A program made the translations under genes and the position numbers. This document shows positions 1-32,497 of a stretch of DNA of 32,497 nucleotides, piece after piece. Positions within the stretch are counted from its first letter, which is position 1, and each line of letters opens with the position of its first letter. The notes under the pieces were generated by a model. The model ran no database searches. It saw nothing but the letters and a program-made list of their open reading frames with translations, and was not told the DNA's origin. This stretch comes from Phycisphaerae bacterium (lineage in GTDB: Bacteria > Planctomycetota > Phycisphaerae > UBA1845): contig JABWBH010000049.1 in NCBI GenBank assembly GCA_013360585.1, positions 1-32,497 of the forward strand, given 5' to 3'.

Positions 1-184
1 ACGCCTCCGATTGACACCCCATCCCTTTCATGGAGACTGGAACTACATACTCACCCCACACAGGAGAAATCGATCAGGTTACTGTTGAGCGCGCCCTTAT
101 GCGCCTACGGAGACGCTTGATCGGAGCGCGCGCTTCATAATCCCCGATGGAATCGCCGTCCTCGGCGGCTTTTCCGGTACCGAG
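1..184 (+). pseudogene. Disrupted 5' part of the beta-helix protein gene
   Basis: Homology-like text of the downstream beta-helix protein continues upstream of its first usable start, but in pieces. The frame of the main gene stays open from 89 and reads YAPTETLDRSARF followed by IPDGIAVLGGFSGTE, a typical lead-in for this family. It is closed by TGA at 86-88. Family-like fragments then appear in other frames: GEIDQVTVE at 63-89, and HGDWNYILT at 29-55 in the first frame again. This pattern fits at least two small indels in a once continuous N-terminal region, or indel errors in the sequence. The true start would lie outside the window. Confidence 0.5.
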
Positions 185-1585
185 TTGCATCACGATGAAC
201 GCGATCCATACGGTTTCGTGACCTGTTTGACAGGGGATATTGGCGTGACCGGAGAGCTATTGGACAATTCGTACCACCTGATCGTCGTCAATAATTGTCC
301 AATGGGGGTAACGATCGACGGGTTCATTGTCAAAGACGCCTATAACGATTTGTCCGACCAGGAAGGTTTTGCAGCAGGAGTTCATGTCATTGATAGTGTT
401 CTGGAACTTCGCAGATGCACGATCATGAACAACCACGCGACGGGTGGAGCTGCTCTGTATAACAGAACCTCAAATGTGCATGTTCTGAAAACAAGGATTG
501 TTCGAAATGACAACGGAGCGGTCATCAATTCCCTGGCTTCGGTAACCTTTGAGCACTGTGATTTCCTTCGTAACTGGAAGTATAGCGGCAATGGCGCTGC
601 TGTCGCGTCGACTGAAGGAAGCATTGTTACTTATGAAAACTGCTACTTTCGAGGAAACAAGCACGCTCGCAACGGCGGCGCGTGCTTTGAACGCGGAACC
701 TCCCACTTCGTCAACTGTCTGTTCGTCAAGAACCGCGCCGGGAACGTCTGCGGGGCGCTGATGGTCTGGGGCGGGGATATGACGGTCGAAGGGTGTATAT
801 TCTACCGGAACCGGGCCGAAATAGGTGGAGGCGGTCTTTGCACAAGTACGGTGGGTGATCTCCGGGTTTACAATTCGATTTTCTGGGCCAACGATGGGCA
901 TCGCAGCGCTCCCATCCGCGATCAAATCTGGATCGAGAATGGCGGGCGTGTTGACTTCAGTTGTATCCAGGACTGGGAAGGGCAACTGGAAGGCGAAAAC
1001 AACTTCGGCGACGATCCCCTGTTCGTTGAGGCAGCCCGCAAGAACCTGCGCCTGCGCGACGACTCCCCCTGCATCGACGCGGGGACGGACGACGCCGTGA
1101 CCGAACCCATCGACCTCGACGGCAACCCGCGCATCCTTGGGCGAAGCGTGGACATCGGGGCCTATGAGAATCTCTGCGCCGACGTGCTCGACCTGTCGGT
1201 CGAACTCGTCGAAGCCGCAAAAGGTGGCGGAGGGGGCGGTGGCGGCGGCGGCGGCGGTGGAGGGGGTGGAGGCGGCGGAGGCGGCGGGCGGTGCGTGGGC
1301 GAAAGCGACGGGGACGGGGACGGGGTGTGCGAACCGGGCGAGGACTGCTGCCTTGTGGCCACGGTGACCGTCAACGCCGACACGTTGCCGCCCGGCTCGA
1401 CCGCCCGCGTGACCTTCACCCCCCTCGACGAAAACGGCGATCCGCTCGAACCGCGCGTCCGCCGCGCTCGTATCCAATCGGAGGGCCGCGGGAAGGCGAC
1501 ACTGCCCGACTGCCCCGCCGGCCGCGTCCGCGTCTGCGTCGAAGGCTGCGGGGAAGCGCTGTGCCGCGAGGTGCAGTGCCCGTAA
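185..1585 (+). CDS. Secreted right-handed beta-helix protein with polyglycine linker (5' end damaged)
   Basis: Parallel beta-helix surface protein. Residues 40-270 are short repeated coils rich in N, G and C (for example CTIMNNHATGGAALYN and CIFYRNRAEIGGGGL). They are followed by SPCIDAGTD near 294 and DIGAYE near 322, a pair typical of secreted choice-of-anchor-Q or pectate-lyase-like proteins. Residues 347-368 are 22 uninterrupted glycines encoded by mixed GGN codons. Then comes an acidic DGDGDG segment and a Cys-bounded C-terminal module of about 80 residues ending in VQCP. The start given is TTG, the first start codon after an in-frame stop at 86-88. Coding similarity extends to 89, and no signal peptide is visible because the real N-terminus is lost or upstream. 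Ligand or substrate is unknown. The glycine run probably acts as a flexible linker between the helix and the tail module (inference). Confidence 0.8.
   Translation: MHHDERDPYGFVTCLTGDIGVTGELLDNSYHLIVVNNCPMGVTIDGFIVKDAYNDLSDQEGFAAGVHVIDSVLELRRCTIMNNHATGGAALYNRTSNVHVLKTRIVRNDNGAVINSLASVTFEHCDFLRNWKYSGNGAAVASTEGSIVTYENCYFRGNKHARNGGACFERGTSHFVNCLFVKNRAGNVCGALMVWGGDMTVEGCIFYRNRAEIGGGGLCTSTVGDLRVYNSIFWANDGHRSAPIRDQIWIENGGRVDFSCIQDWEGQLEGENNFGDDPLFVEAARKNLRLRDDSPCIDAGTDDAVTEPIDLDGNPRILGRSVDIGAYENLCADVLDLSVELVEAAKGGGGGGGGGGGGGGGGGGGGGGRCVGESDGDGDGVCEPGEDCCLVATVTVNADTLPPGSTARVTFTPLDENGDPLEPRVRRARIQSEGRGKATLPDCPAGRVRVCVEGCGEALCREVQCP
1223..1288 (+). repeat. (GGN)22 glycine-codon tract
   Basis: Twenty-two consecutive glycine codons (GGT, GGC, GGA and GGG mixed) lie between the beta-helix and the C-terminal module of the gene at 185-1585. 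The tract is in frame, so changes in length by whole codons would alter only linker length. The G-rich strand could also form secondary structure. Confidence 0.95.
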
Positions 1586-1632
1586 GGACGATGGGCTGCG
1601 GGGAGGCGCTGTGCCGGGAGGGAGAATGTCCG
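1544..1632 (+). repeat. Imperfect tandem duplication of the 3' end of the beta-helix gene
   Basis: The last ~40 bases of the coding region (1544-1581, ggctgcggggaagcgctgtg onward) recur 50 bases downstream at 1594-1632 with a few substitutions. The first copy encodes CGEALCREVQCP and stop. The second would encode CGEALCREGECPW in another frame, after the stop. It is a decayed tail copy, either from a tandem duplication or left from a second, deleted gene that ended in the same tail. Confidence 0.8.
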
Positions 1633-6768: not shown

Positions 6769-7373
6769 CGGCGATCTCCAACTTCCCAGCGATCCTGATG
6801 TTCGGCGGACCCGGGACCGGGAAGGGAACCCAGGGTACGATTCTCGGCCGGGTGCCCAACCTCGCCCACCTCGCGATGGGCGACATTTTCCGCGCGCTGG
6901 ATCCCGCTTCCGAACTCGGTCGTGAGTTTCTCGCCTACTCGACCAAGGGACTGCTTGTGCCCGATGTGTTCACCGTCCGTCTGTTCCAGCAGCACGTTGG
7001 CGAGTTGATCGACGCAGGAAAGGTCCGCGCCTCTTATCACACGCTCCTGCTTGACGGCATTCCACGCACGACGACCCAGGTTGAGCTTCTGCGTGGGACG
7101 ATCGACGTTCGCCGGATCATTCATCTCGTGGTCGATGACCGGGAGGCGCTGGTCGCTCGCCTCAGCGCCCGTGCGCGTAAGGCCAACCGCCCCGACGACG
7201 CCGATCCGTCCGTGATCCGCAAACGTCTCGACGTCTACGACTCCGAGACGCGACCGGTTCTGGAGGCATATCCCCCGGAGCTGGTGCGCCGCATCAACGG
7301 CGACCAGCACCCGCTGGCCGTCCTTCGCGACGTTGCGGCTGCGCTGATCCCCGTCGTTCCCGGCAGCATCTAA
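6765..7373 (+). CDS. Adenylate-kinase-like nucleoside monophosphate kinase
   Basis: P-loop NMP kinase of 202 residues that should transfer phosphate from ATP to a nucleoside monophosphate. The Walker A loop is GGPGTGKGT at 14-22, the NMP-binding helix starts at MGDIFRA, and LDGIPRTTTQ matches the LDGFPR motif with Phe replaced by Ile. The LID is short (RARKANRPDDAD), followed by VIRKRLDVYDSETRPVLEAY, which is standard for the family. The usual STGD is AMGD here. It is coupled by ATGA to the PPIase gene rather than placed with ribosomal or secY genes, so it may be a second, specialised kinase. Substrate specificity cannot be read from the sequence. Confidence 0.88.
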   Translation: MTAISNFPAILMFGGPGTGKGTQGTILGRVPNLAHLAMGDIFRALDPASELGREFLAYSTKGLLVPDVFTVRLFQQHVGELIDAGKVRASYHTLLLDGIPRTTTQVELLRGTIDVRRIIHLVVDDREALVARLSARARKANRPDDADPSVIRKRLDVYDSETRPVLEAYPPELVRRINGDQHPLAVLRDVAAALIPVVPGSI

Positions 7374-13851: not shown

Positions 13852-15027
13852 CTACCGCGGGGGGCACGAGGTGTTGCGGTAGATCGAAAAGGTCGCGTCG
13901 GATGAGGCCTGTACCGTGTGCGAACCTGGCGGCACGTCGCGCCACACGACCTTGCCCTTCCCGCGGTTGTTCGCGATCAGGGGGTTGTTGTTGCCCCCGT
14001 CATATTTGAGTTGGACGCGTTCGCCGCGCGGATAGCCTTTCACCCGCGCCGTCAGACGGCCACGCTCTTCACAATGCGCGCGCAGTTTCGGCGTCGCCGG
14101 ACTTCCGCGGTACCAAAAGGCCGTCATCGCGCCAAGAGGGTTCATGCACTGCCCGATGTCGAGCGCCTGGCACTCTCCCCCGTTGACCTGTCCGTTATGG
14201 TTCTGATCCCAGTGCATTCTGCGCATCTGGTTGCACTCGTTCAGGGGCTTTTGCGTTCCCCAGAGCATTGGCTGCGCCAGCGTTGCGGGCGTCATCGCGA
14301 CATCCTTGGCCAGAACAATCTTGTACGCACCGCGGCCGTCCGCCGGCGCCGTGAGCTTTAGATTTCCGGGAAGAAGACACAGCGGAAGATCGACAAAGTA
14401 GTAACCGCCTGTGTCATGACTGGACGGAAGAATTCCGAAATCCACCGCAATGCCCGAGACGAATCCCGCACTCGTGCAGTTCCCCGAGTTCTCCCAATCC
14501 TCGAAGGTCGAAAACCCGATCACGCACCGCTCGGAGCTTCCCGGTCCGCTCACTTGCCACCACCACGCGAATTGCACGCGCCCGAACTCCGCGCTGTTGC
14601 ACGCGCCGACCGCGGCGCCGTTCATCCGGTCCAGATCGTCGACAAACACGACGTTGCGCGTGTTGTCCGCGAACCGGTATCGACCCGATCCCAGCCCGCA
14701 GTTCTGTCCGTAAAATCCGTCGCCGGGAGCGTCCGTCGTTGAGTCCATCTCGAATGCGTCGAAGCACAGAAACGCGCCGCAAAGCTCCACCGGACGAACA
14801 TCCGGCCACGGCTGCCACGTGTCCGGCAGCACACCCTCCTCATCCATCAGCGCGACCGCGATCGGCGCAGCCGGAACTCCACCGTCAACGATGACCAGAG
14901 ATTCATCAGGACGATTGCCCTCGATCGGACGGTTCGTTAAAAAAGATTCGTTATCAGGCTTCTGCGCCTGCGCCGTTCCAACGCACGCACCCAACAACAG
15001 TGCTTCCCTCAACAAGCATCGCCTCAT
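13852..15027 (-). CDS. Secreted cysteine-rich protein with dockerin-like loop and Cys-Pro C-terminal module
   Basis: Exported protein of 391 residues and unknown function. Signal peptide 1-21 (RRCLLREALLLGACVGTAQA, then QKP). The central part (about 90-240) is rich in Cys, Trp, Tyr and Gly and looks like a beta-sandwich binding domain. The segment DQNHNGQVNGGEC resembles a single dockerin or EF-type calcium loop. The last ~80 residues begin at LRAHCEERG, contain NNRGKGKVVW and VPPGSHTVQAS, and end in SCPPR. This matches in layout the C-termini of the beta-helix protein near 1.5 kb and the CHRD protein near 29.3 kb. ATG 15027 has AAAGGG at good spacing, and a promoter lies at 15198-15227. Confidence 0.85.
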   Translation of the reverse strand: MRRCLLREALLLGACVGTAQAQKPDNESFLTNRPIEGNRPDESLVIVDGGVPAAPIAVALMDEEGVLPDTWQPWPDVRPVELCGAFLCFDAFEMDSTTDAPGDGFYGQNCGLGSGRYRFADNTRNVVFVDDLDRMNGAAVGACNSAEFGRVQFAWWWQVSGPGSSERCVIGFSTFEDWENSGNCTSAGFVSGIAVDFGILPSSHDTGGYYFVDLPLCLLPGNLKLTAPADGRGAYKIVLAKDVAMTPATLAQPMLWGTQKPLNECNQMRRMHWDQNHNGQVNGGECQALDIGQCMNPLGAMTAFWYRGSPATPKLRAHCEERGRLTARVKGYPRGERVQLKYDGGNNNPLIANNRGKGKVVWRDVPPGSHTVQASSDATFSIYRNTSCPPR

Positions 15028-29203: not shown

Positions 29204-30466
29204 TTACGGCATGCAGTGCGTGTGCGCTTCGATGTCACACGGGAGCACCTTCACGTGATGGTCGCCTTCGGTGACGTCCTTGAACTTGCCCGTGGCCTTG
29301 CCGCTGTCCTTGACCGTCTTGACGACGTCGGTGTTCGCGTCGTCATCGAGACGGAAGGTGACTTCCAGCCCCGGCGTGCTGTTCTTCAGCTTGCCCTTGA
29401 CGATGAACTTGCCGTTCTTGAGCTTGCAGGAAGCGTTGAGCACTTCGTTACCGCTGCACGGCGTCGGGTTCTCGATCTGACCGCGGATTTCCCCTCCCGG
29501 GAACTCCTGCGAGTGAACGTTGACGTACATGCCGCCGGAGAGGAGCGTCGCGGCCTGCTCCGGAGTGACGCCAGTGATCTCGACCTCGATCGGGCTGACG
29601 CCGTCGCCGAGATTAAAGGTTACGCCGCCGTTCTGTCCGCGCGGCGCGGTGTGGATGTGCGCCGCGGTCGGGTTCGCCACGTCGTGCGTCACCGACACGA
29701 AGATCGAGTTCCCCAGCGAACTCAGGGCCAGAAAGCCCGTACCCGTCGCGGTGCTCCCGGTCGGCGGAACTTCCTGCGACCCGTCGAGCGGGAAGTTGTA
29801 CTCCGTCCGCTCGCGGTTCTCCGTGCCCGGCGTGTCGTGTCCGCCGTTCGGGAAGAACGAGCCGATGTGCCAGACGTGGTCGCCCGTCTCCAGGCGGTGG
29901 ATATGCCCCGGAACGAACGTGCCGTCCGGTCCGATCCGGTTGTCGCCGTAAAGGCACTCGGTGTTCACCGGCGGATCCTCGAGCACCAGCCCGATCGAAT
30001 CCACGATCGTCGTCCACGGCGTAATGTCGAACACGCAGTCGTCGTTGGTGTCCAGATCCTGACCCATCGTGCCCGTGAAGCCCTCGACGAGCATGTGCGT
30101 GACGTTGTCCGTGTTCTCGAAATTCAGGCCGTTGCCCGAGAGGACGAGGTCAGCCGTGCCGATGTTCACCATCGTGAAGGTGCTCTCAACCGCCAGGAAG
30201 TAACCGTCCGCCGGAATGACCAGTCCGTTCAGGTTGACGATCGCTTCGATGACGCCGCTGAACGTCCCCGACGAACCGTCGCCGATCACGATGTAGGTCA
30301 AACCGTCGAGCGACGTGCCCGCCCGTCCGGTAAGCTCAAAGTACTCATCATTGTCCGTGCTCGGCTGGTCGATGCGGATCTCGCTGATCTCGACCTGCGC
30401 CGATGCGCCGCCGACAAGCCCCAGCGCCAGCATCACGCCCCACAACGCCTGCAAATTCCGTCCCAT
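29204..30466 (-). CDS. Secreted lamin-tail/CHRD-domain protein with Cys-Pro C-terminal module
   Basis: Exported protein of 420 residues. Signal peptide 1-23 (LWGVMLALGLVGGASA, then QVE). Residues about 25-200 resemble a lamin-tail domain (VEISEIRIDQPSTDNDEYFEL, then YIVIGDG, and ADGYFLAVE). Residues about 225-340 are a CHRD beta domain (FPLDGSQEVPPTGSTATGTG, then AAHIHTAPRGQNG, and GGMYVNVHSQEFPGGEIRGQ), known from chordin and from bacterial exported proteins. The last ~80 residues, from NASCKLKNG through SGKATGKF and TEGDHHVKV to THCMP, form a Cys-bounded module like those of two other secreted proteins in the window. AGGAGG lies 5 bases before ATG 30466, the best ribosome site seen here, so high expression is likely. 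Role unknown; probably surface adhesion or matrix. Confidence 0.9.
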   Translation of the reverse strand: MGRNLQALWGVMLALGLVGGASAQVEISEIRIDQPSTDNDEYFELTGRAGTSLDGLTYIVIGDGSSGTFSGVIEAIVNLNGLVIPADGYFLAVESTFTMVNIGTADLVLSGNGLNFENTDNVTHMLVEGFTGTMGQDLDTNDDCVFDITPWTTIVDSIGLVLEDPPVNTECLYGDNRIGPDGTFVPGHIHRLETGDHVWHIGSFFPNGGHDTPGTENRERTEYNFPLDGSQEVPPTGSTATGTGFLALSSLGNSIFVSVTHDVANPTAAHIHTAPRGQNGGVTFNLGDGVSPIEVEITGVTPEQAATLLSGGMYVNVHSQEFPGGEIRGQIENPTPCSGNEVLNASCKLKNGKFIVKGKLKNSTPGLEVTFRLDDDANTDVVKTVKDSGKATGKFKDVTEGDHHVKVLPCDIEAHTHCMP

Positions 30467-31357: not shown

Positions 31358-31984
31358 TTACCATATCAGAAAGGTCCACGTCGTATTTTCCAGTACTAGA
31401 TCTATATTGGCACACATGTCTTGAAATGGAAGTTTTGCTGATCCGACAACGGTAAATCCGGACACTGATTCAACTAAAACACCATCGTCATTTACCCGTA
31501 ATCGAATCCTGTTCATTATCGCCGTTAGCACCGCGACACTCGCAGCGGCACCTGCGAAGATAGCCAGTTCGTTAATAGCCCACCCTAAACCGATGCGCAA
31601 TACTGGAAGCACAACTGCAACTATGATAAAGAGCGCCAGGCGTTGGCTGCGTCTGAGGAAGGTCGTATAAACAACCTCGCCCAGAACGATACCGGATCTG
31701 ACTCGATATACACTATTAATCTGCGCCGCGACCCCACTTAGCTCAAATAACGGGCCTTGATGGGGAAGGGAATCGCATGAAACATTCAAGCGTTTCTCCT
31801 CCTTGCGAAACTCAATTGCTCGCACTACCCAAGCGGGAGCGGCGAGCAGACCGGCAGTTGTCATGATGGCAACGGGAGACATGAACTGGACAAGAAGCGG
31901 GCCCATCAAATAAAGCAGAAGACCACCATAAACGATCTGCTGCCACGGATCGTAATACCAAGCTGGATCTCGAGTAGAATGCAT
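31358..31984 (-). CDS. Small membrane protein linked to the RHS gene (candidate immunity protein)
   Basis: Protein of 208 residues. A double hydrophobic segment spans about 15-55 (YGGLLLYLMGPLLVQF, AIMTTAGLLAAPAWVV). A second spans about 113-155 (LALFIIVAVVLPVL, ELAIFAGAAASVAVLTAI). It ends with a beta-rich cytoplasmic tail of ~50 residues (RIRLRVNDDGVLVESVSGF) resembling bacterial PH-like tails. ATG 31984 starts 21 bases after the RHS stop, with AAAGG upstream, so both genes share a transcript. Base composition is less G+C-rich than the rest of the window. I recognise no family. Its position directly after an RHS tail makes an immunity role reasonable but unproven. Confidence 0.7.
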   Translation of the reverse strand: MHSTRDPAWYYDPWQQIVYGGLLLYLMGPLLVQFMSPVAIMTTAGLLAAPAWVVRAIEFRKEEKRLNVSCDSLPHQGPLFELSGVAAQINSVYRVRSGIVLGEVVYTTFLRRSQRLALFIIVAVVLPVLRIGLGWAINELAIFAGAAASVAVLTAIMNRIRLRVNDDGVLVESVSGFTVVGSAKLPFQDMCANIDLVLENTTWTFLIW

Positions 31985-32005
31985 AACGTAAGACCTTTGT
32001 ATGCC

Positions 32006-32497
32006 TCAAATCCCTGGTTGCGGAATGGGTTCGCCCAACGGCGGGCGTAATAATCCACCCCTTGGTGTCCTTGGAATCTTTGGAAATGTTCCCAGACCAA
32101 TCCCTATGGCGCCACCATCAAGTAGTGGGTCGATTGCTGAATTACCTGTGCTCCCTCCCAACGCACGGAAGCTGCCCCAACCTATTGCTCCGGCAGCCGC
32201 ATACGGTGCCGTAACCGGAAAGAAGTAGACACAGGAAAATCCAAGGCCAACACCGGCAAAAAAGTTGGAGGCATGATCGACGCGGGTCTTGTCATCGAAG
32301 AAGTCCGCTAACCAAGGCCACCAGGGATCGTAACTGGGGCCTCCTGTGATGTCAATAATAAGATCATCGAGACCGTAAAGCCCGAGTGGATCAACATCAA
32401 TCGTAGGACGACTATCTACGTACGCATAGGCGTTCAATCCTCCCTGAATCCCAATCGGATCCCGCTGCAAAAACCGTCCGATCGCCGGATCATACCA
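32006..32497 (-). CDS. RHS-repeat protein, C-terminal end with putative toxin tail (5' end outside window)
   Basis: The frame is open through the window edge and begins with WYDPAIGRFLQRDPIG, then GGLNAYAYVDSRPTIDVDPLGL. This is the RHS-associated core that ends the cocoon-forming shell of RHS/YD-repeat polymorphic toxins. Some 120 residues follow. First comes a Trp-rich stretch (YDPWWPWLADFFDDKTRVDH), then a glycine-rich hydrophobic segment (FFAGVGLGFSCVYFF, then YAAAGAIGWGSFRALGG), then a Pro-rich end. This variable tail is where such proteins carry their effector. I recognise no nuclease or deaminase motif; the hydrophobic segment could act on membranes. The downstream membrane protein may be the partner. 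Confidence 0.85.
   Translation of the reverse strand, partial: WYDPAIGRFLQRDPIGIQGGLNAYAYVDSRPTIDVDPLGLYGLDDLIIDITGGPSYDPWWPWLADFFDDKTRVDHASNFFAGVGLGFSCVYFFPVTAPYAAAGAIGWGSFRALGGSTGNSAIDPLLDGGAIGIGLGTFPKIPRTPRGGLLRPPLGEPIPQPGI

Follow-up and report, generated by a model that had tools for sequence, protein, structure and literature searches.

The window and its three tailed proteins

In this study, the window was the whole stretch of 32,497 nucleotides that forms contig C12 in the 84-contig, 4.24 Mb genome of a Phycisphaerae bacterium (the home genome). Three of its open reading frames (ORFs) end in copies of one immunoglobulin-like (Ig-like) domain, here called the tail. The features were as follows:

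89..1585, + strand: host ORF of copy A, a beta-helix / choice-of-anchor Q protein, frame open from 89
1346..1585, + strand: copy A, Ig-like tail with stop codon (HMM match 1346-1582; AlphaFold2 model)
1590..1632, + strand: incomplete duplication of copy A's final ~40 bases, 3' of its stop codon
13852..15027, - strand: host ORF of copy B, with the N-terminal signal peptide MRRCLLREALLLGACVGTAQA (cleavage site by eye)
13852..14094, - strand: copy B, Ig-like tail with stop codon, on a secreted Cys-rich protein (HMM match 13861-14094)
29204..30466, - strand: host ORF of copy C, with the signal peptide MGRNLQALWGVMLALGLVGGASA (by eye) and a CHRD domain at residues 224-331
29204..29467, - strand: copy C, Ig-like tail with stop codon, on the CHRD protein (HMM match 29213-29467; AlphaFold2 model)

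The first-pass annotation had placed a shared tail at the ends of ORFs 185-1585 (+), 13852-15027 (-), and 29204-30466 (-), and the three tails were found there, each ending at the stop codon. It had also described all three hosts as secreted. This held for proteins B and C, which carry a signal peptide, but not for the open frame of copy A. That frame begins at 89, directly after a stop codon and within the beta-helix, and has no signal peptide; its 5' end therefore appears to have been lost, or put out of frame, at the edge of the contig. The choice_anch_Q match lies at residues 287-328 of ORF 185-1585. In protein A, the beta-helix body and the tail region are linked by a run of 22 glycines (window 1223-1288). 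The duplicate behind copy A was seen as an HMM fragment at 1561-1632 with an E value of 0.025 (three-row profile, home genome). At the far end of the window, 31358-32497 holds two ORFs with a GC3 of 0.47-0.48, far below most of the window; the second resembles the end of an RHS-repeat protein.

The three tails were barely alike in single pairwise comparisons (B and C: 25% identity, E 6e-5; A and B: E 0.008), so a family was needed to back the claim of a shared domain. An HMM of 77 other tails of the home genome, built without the three window rows, scored copy C at 4.1e-20, copy B at 3.5e-15, and copy A, the most divergent, at 1.3e-6 (Z = 7000). Among 1720 shuffled ORFs, none reached E <= 1 with this HMM. 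The likeness of the three tails is more than chance. The shared family proposed by the first-pass annotation was thus upheld, with the correction that copy B has only two Cys and lacks the usual first and third.

The tail family in the home genome

The home genome was searched with three profiles, built from the three window tails (A1), from 39 tails (A2), and, more broadly, from 80 tails (A7). A1 gave 62 matches at E <= 10 including the window's own, and its best match beyond these was 1.1e-13; tail B alone as query gave 37 matches. A2 gave 98 matches at E <= 10, 94 of them inside the fetched stretches or the window and the other four weak (E 0.02-0.28). With A7, at least 106 copies were found at E <= 0.001 (all 106 that were scored matched, among 158 candidates).

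The position of the tail was determined in 8125 ORFs of at least 40 codons, taken from 80 stretches of the home genome and the window. A7, run with filters off and itself derived from most of these tails, matched 93 ORFs at E <= 1e-3, with a single copy in each. Of the 93 matches, 86 ended within two residues of the stop codon, 89 within ten, and 91 within 11. An earlier, narrower HMM search, which missed several tails, had given 86 ORFs, with 81 ending within ten residues of the stop. In all 91 terminal copies the last Cys lay 0-6 residues before the C-terminus, and in 72 of them exactly one residue before it. The two internal copies were read by eye. In L140, the gene is fused to a second FG-GAP-like copy; in L120, a long C-terminal part follows the domain.

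A signal-peptide-like start was found in 74/86 tail ORFs by a lenient rule without control. By a strict rule it was found in 42/72 tail ORFs versus 48/275 other ORFs of the same stretches, the latter including a few later recognized as tail ORFs; both rules were home-made. The view that varied exported proteins share one tail was borne out by these 93 ORFs, nearly all with a terminal copy (fetched stretches and window), and the profile search that the first-pass annotation had proposed did find further C-terminal copies in the genome.

The host bodies were diverse. At E <= 1e-3, the 79 bodies matched 45 families in Pfam and 47 in NCBIfam, some overlapping. Among the best 25 families of each database were subtilase, Porphyromonas-type deiminase, PHB depolymerase, beta-propellers, and beta-helices. 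Choice-of-anchor bodies were represented by choice_anch_B (three members), choice_anch_Q (two), and choice_anch_V (one), and all three TIGR04312 proteins of the home genome carry the tail. In NCBI naming, "choice-of-anchor" (TIGR04312, NF041518, NF041895) denotes bodies with interchangeable C-terminal anchors. One tailed protein had a sub-cut-off Dockerin_1 match immediately upstream of the tail.

Sequence architecture and predicted fold

The consensus of 80 aligned tails has four main cysteines. C1 and C3 co-vary: both are present in 74 tails, only C1 in none, only C3 in three, and neither in three (phi 0.69). Extra Cys pairs co-vary as well (c110-c124, phi 1.0; c43-c73, phi 0.94; c39-c95, phi 0.74). 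From these patterns we infer a disulfide C1-C3 and, in most tails, C2-C4. The terminal Cys occurs in 80/80 tails, including 11 without C2. The number of Cys is even in 57/80, and four rows with seven (C1, c39, c43, c73, c95, C3, C4) have one Cys left over. One strand carries K/R at three alternating positions in 91%, 74%, and 69% of the tails.

The AlphaFold2 model of tail C (pLDDT 96.3, pTM 0.85) has seven strands and that of tail A (pLDDT 86.7) has six. The strand order of tail A was read as that of tail C minus the first strand, and in this sense the two models agree. Both consist of strands only, with no helix. The fold is a generic Ig-like sandwich (best Foldseek E 8e-3, VIA Z 9.1); in the tail C model, the near-terminal Cys forms part of the last strand or adjoins it. 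The small beta-sandwich foreseen from the sequence was obtained in the predicted structures of tails A and C. The lack of a hydrophobic helix was likewise supported: the best 15-residue hydropathy was 1.0-1.7 in four choice_anch_B tails of genus g1 versus 2.1-2.7 in seven IPTL-type ends. No T9SS CTD was among the matches listed in the fold search, a result that carries no evidential weight.

The tail had no clear match to a Pfam or NCBIfam model; the best was Big_3_5 (E 3e-5), which matched 17/39 tails at E <= 1, and window protein B scored 13.6 bits against its Pfam gathering cut-off of 35.5. The top PDB matches by sequence were rejected as additive artefacts, since these were repeat proteins whose scores added up over many weak repeats. 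None of 33 pattern matches in viral contigs was a relative.

Distribution across genomes

Among 51 genomes of the bacterial family, the tail was abundant in two genera, g1 (four genomes) and g29 (one genome), with at least 86-106 copies each. Eight other genomes had 1-4 copies and 38 had none. Named relatives are the MAGs JAJVHU01 (Phycisphaerae bacterium Bin_14R), BOJX01 (Planctomycetota bacterium BroJett003), and JADZBE01 (Phycisphaerales bacterium SJ659). Genera g1 and g29 grouped together with an SH-aLRT of 99 in one exosortase tree and weakly (77) in the other, both quick trees. In 392 genomes of the phylum, with at most 14 candidates per genome scored, nine weak Ig-like matches were found outside this clade, and none of the nine ended within ten residues of the stop. 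In the genomes searched, the massively multicopy tail is restricted to a single clade comprising two genera; a multicopy module general to planctomycetes was not supported.

The single tails of G016, G025, and G035 sit on proteins 29-32% identical to one tailed protein of the home genome, which has an HExxH motif and was read by eye as a metallopeptidase. Since these single copies are on homologous proteins, the tail module probably pre-dates its expansion. Two genomes of the same order have weaker, internal tail relatives (L069 and L070). In L069 (G052), residues 425-579 of the ORF form two tandem tail-like domains in a non-terminal position, possibly an older, non-terminal relative of the tail.

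Exchange of the tail with known C-terminal signals

Choice_anch_B proteins were found in 41/51 family genomes at E <= 0.001, 35 of them over the cut-off. In a set of 30 proteins, one per genome, 26 ends were readable; of the other four, three ran off the end of the locus and one contained an internal stop. The tail was present on 5/30, namely those of all four g1 genomes (E 2e-20 to 1e-17) and G022 (2e-7), and the other 25 had no A7 match at E <= 10. By eye, these 25 ends comprised seven IPTL-type ends, 14 dockerin-like or related repeats, and the four unreadable ones. PF18203 confirmed L178 and L189 as IPTL-CTERM, with L174 absent from its matches, and PF00404 confirmed L169 as dockerin.

The orthologues share 41-49% identity over 360-674 residues, and their alignments break off at a common junction, give or take about ten residues. 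Beyond it follows the tail (G000, G001, G022), IPTL-CTERM (G024, G006; G017 by eye), or Dockerin_1 (G072). These alignments showed that, in one host family, the tail has been exchanged with sorting signals and dockerin at approximately one junction, so that it occupies the place where relatives carry sorting signals. As dockerins are found there too, this slot is not reserved for surface sorting.

The counts of known signals (PEP-CTERM, PF07589; IPTL-CTERM, TIGR04174) ran opposite to that of the tail. The five tail-rich genomes had no IPTL-CTERM and 1-4 PEP-CTERM matches each, versus 8-57 for both signals together (median 24) in the other 46, with no overlap. IPTL-CTERM was also missing in 7/46 of the other genomes, and in G022 the tail is present beside 43 IPTL-CTERM matches. 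Since the five tail-rich genomes form one clade, the drop is a single evolutionary event, and the Mann-Whitney values for the signal-peptide rule and for the PEP/IPTL counts are not independent replication.

Exosortases were found in 51/51 family genomes, with two matches in the home genome. Their presence is therefore not discriminating, and their retention in the tail-rich genomes means that the older system persists. In the tail-rich clade, one exosortase paralog (L238, L239, L240, L241, L242) sits on a long stem branch of 0.58 changes per column, as if it had evolved faster after its substrates dwindled.

Gene neighbourhoods

An exported protein of 105-120 residues that consists of the tail only is kept with its neighbours in 4/4 genomes of the genus. 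The neighbours are a sigma-54 response regulator, a tailed protein of ~590 residues, and an ABC transporter. Between G000 and G002 the tail-only protein is 74% identical and the tailed neighbour 53%. The feature was recorded as follows:

L099:6964-9020: conserved tail-only gene group (also in L258, L259, L260), with the tail-only protein at 6964-7278

At five loci (L111, L114, L128, L129, and L133), a small tailed protein of 167-289 aa is paired with a large ORF of 466-804 aa. The large ORFs belong to one family, and the one in L133 is truncated where the locus ends.

When the 466 predicted genes of the fetched stretches were clustered, no partner common to many tail genes emerged. The largest cluster (50) says little, because its tail genes are joined mostly through their tails; the largest cluster without tails has nine members, among them the window's protein kinase. 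A comparison of 64 tail genes with 242 others for sigma-54 sites and k-mers gave no shared upstream motif; only ribosome-binding-site-like words emerged.

Proposed role of the tail

Because it sits where relatives carry sorting signals, the tail looks like an undescribed route for delivering proteins to the surface or fixing them there. It is considered fairly probable that the tail is a folded C-terminal sorting or attachment domain that does an exosortase-type job without a transmembrane helix. In the proposed mechanism, an N-terminal signal peptide, for which most hosts have sequence evidence, would direct export by Sec. In the periplasm, the last ~75-85 residues are predicted to fold into a seven-stranded Ig-like sandwich. 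As co-variation suggests, this would be stapled by a disulfide C1-C3, probably another between C2 and the terminal Cys, and variable extra pairs. A putative partner at the outer membrane or surface would recognize two features, the basic strand (G-K-x-K-x-K) and the fixed C-terminus, and would send the protein to the cell surface or hold it there. In the tail-rich clade, the tail would have assumed the role that PEP-/IPTL-CTERM and C-terminal dockerins have in related genera, and would be functionally equivalent to them; on sequence, the slot replacement is shown for one host family. The main function of the tail may be translocation, as for the type IX CTD, or the binding of a surface glycan or receptor. 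Of the surface-attachment or export domain first proposed, the signal-like placement is supported, attachment or export itself is putative, and a multicopy module common to planctomycetes is not supported.

Several results were counted against the sorting reading: exosortases are kept, the drop in PEP-/IPTL-CTERM is a single event, 7/46 other genomes lack IPTL-CTERM too, dockerins occur in the same slot, G022 is mixed, some copies are internal, and neither an upstream motif nor cognate machinery was found in the genomes and neighbourhoods searched. A wider form of this reading is an independent T9SS-like delivery outside Bacteroidota. Its disulfide-stapled Ig-fold signal, with its own putative outer-membrane translocon or receptor, would have come to mark about a hundred exported proteins per genome, or more, in one Phycisphaerae clade, where it would have supplanted most signals of the exosortase type. 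This is put forward tentatively and is rather doubtful.

Alternatively, the tail could be a docking module that, like dockerin, binds a cohesin-like partner and builds extracellular complexes without a role in transport. Dockerin_1 stands at the same junction in an orthologue, among the 26 choice_anch_B ends that could be read about half are dockerin-like by eye, and the conserved tail-only protein is kept as an adaptor might be. A docking role thus retains some probability, because dockerins fill the same slot and the replacement is one event. However, IPTL-CTERM, a membrane-anchored processing signal, fills this junction too, the tail-rich clade has no IPTL-CTERM and little PEP-CTERM, and the domain almost always occurs once, at the terminus. 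Docking alone was judged unlikely.

The near-terminal Cys might instead be a covalent site for a lipid, a glycan, or an intermolecular disulfide, as proposed for the MYXO-CTERM Cys. Its presence in every aligned tail, even in the 11 without its likely partner C2, and the unpaired Cys of the seven-Cys rows would suit such a site. The even Cys count of most tails fits a closed disulfide set, and only 0-6 residues, with no helix, follow the Cys; a covalent site is quite improbable. A passive stability cap, in which a disulfide-stapled Ig-like end protects against proteolysis and spread by recombination and drift with no partner, would fit the fold, the many Cys, and the multicopy state in one clade only, but it is quite improbable as well: the conserved basic strand, the conserved tail-only protein, the low sorting-signal count, and the terminal position would not be expected of it.

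To our knowledge, the placement of many proteins at the surface of diderm planctomycetes is little understood. Here a single undescribed domain marks roughly a hundred of the proteins that one genome exports, and near relatives with known signals on orthologous proteins offer a natural before-and-after comparison. The tail-rich genomes form a short list for seeking cognate machinery, and the domain is small enough for reporter work.

Comparison with known systems

A C-terminal sorting domain is a known kind of element. The tail family seems to be new, as do its Cys architecture and its lineage. No description of such a domain was found in the literature covered, a search that left most subscription papers and preprints outside.

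The weak sequence similarity to Big_3_5 / Big_1 and the predicted Ig-like fold are shared with those domains, whereas the conserved Cys, the basic strand, and the single terminal placement are particular to the tail. Type I dockerin is likewise a C-terminal module at the same junction (G072), but the tail models show strands only. PF00404 had no match in two tail-bearing C-termini, while the G072 orthologue matched at 3.6e-6, and Dockerin_1 was absent from the best 25 of the 33 Pfam families matching 39 tails.

MYXO-CTERM is described as having an invariant Cys near the C-terminus in dozens of proteins of one lineage (PMC11980579). The tail also has an invariant Cys near its C-terminus on many proteins of one lineage, but it has neither a transmembrane helix nor an Arg-rich end, and few residues (0-6) follow its last Cys.

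PEP-CTERM is reported at the C-termini of many different exported proteins with a lineage-patchy occurrence (PMC1569441). The tail resembles PEP-/IPTL-CTERM in its varied exported hosts, its C-terminal and patchy occurrence, and the shared junction on orthologous bodies. It differs in lacking the layout of motif, helix, and basic end, in its size (~80 residues versus models of 24 and 27), and in its opposite abundance.

T9SS CTD proteins are reported to have a Sec signal peptide, different bodies, and a folded C-terminal domain, with many copies per genome; these CTDs are described as restricted to Bacteroidota, and TIGR04131 is given as a T9SS sorting-domain model (PMC10202324). None of the 12 NCBIfam families matching 39 tails at E <= 1 was a T9SS model. 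TIGR04183 is another such model, and the T9SS CTD is a beta-sandwich of a size similar to the tail. Single-tail Pfam matches to Peptidase_C25_C (0.079) and GldM_3rd (0.11), both Ig-like, were not significant, and SprA (TIGR04189) had no match in 60 genomes, a search equally silent in control genomes. The tail and the T9SS CTD have in common the Sec signal peptide, a folded beta domain (of ~80 residues and predicted here), the extreme C-terminal position, the many copies, and the varied bodies. The tail is unlike it in being Cys-rich with a near-terminal Cys and in having a planctomycete host. By analogy, the tail probably works most like the T9SS CTD, as a folded domain and not as a tag of motif, helix, and basic end.
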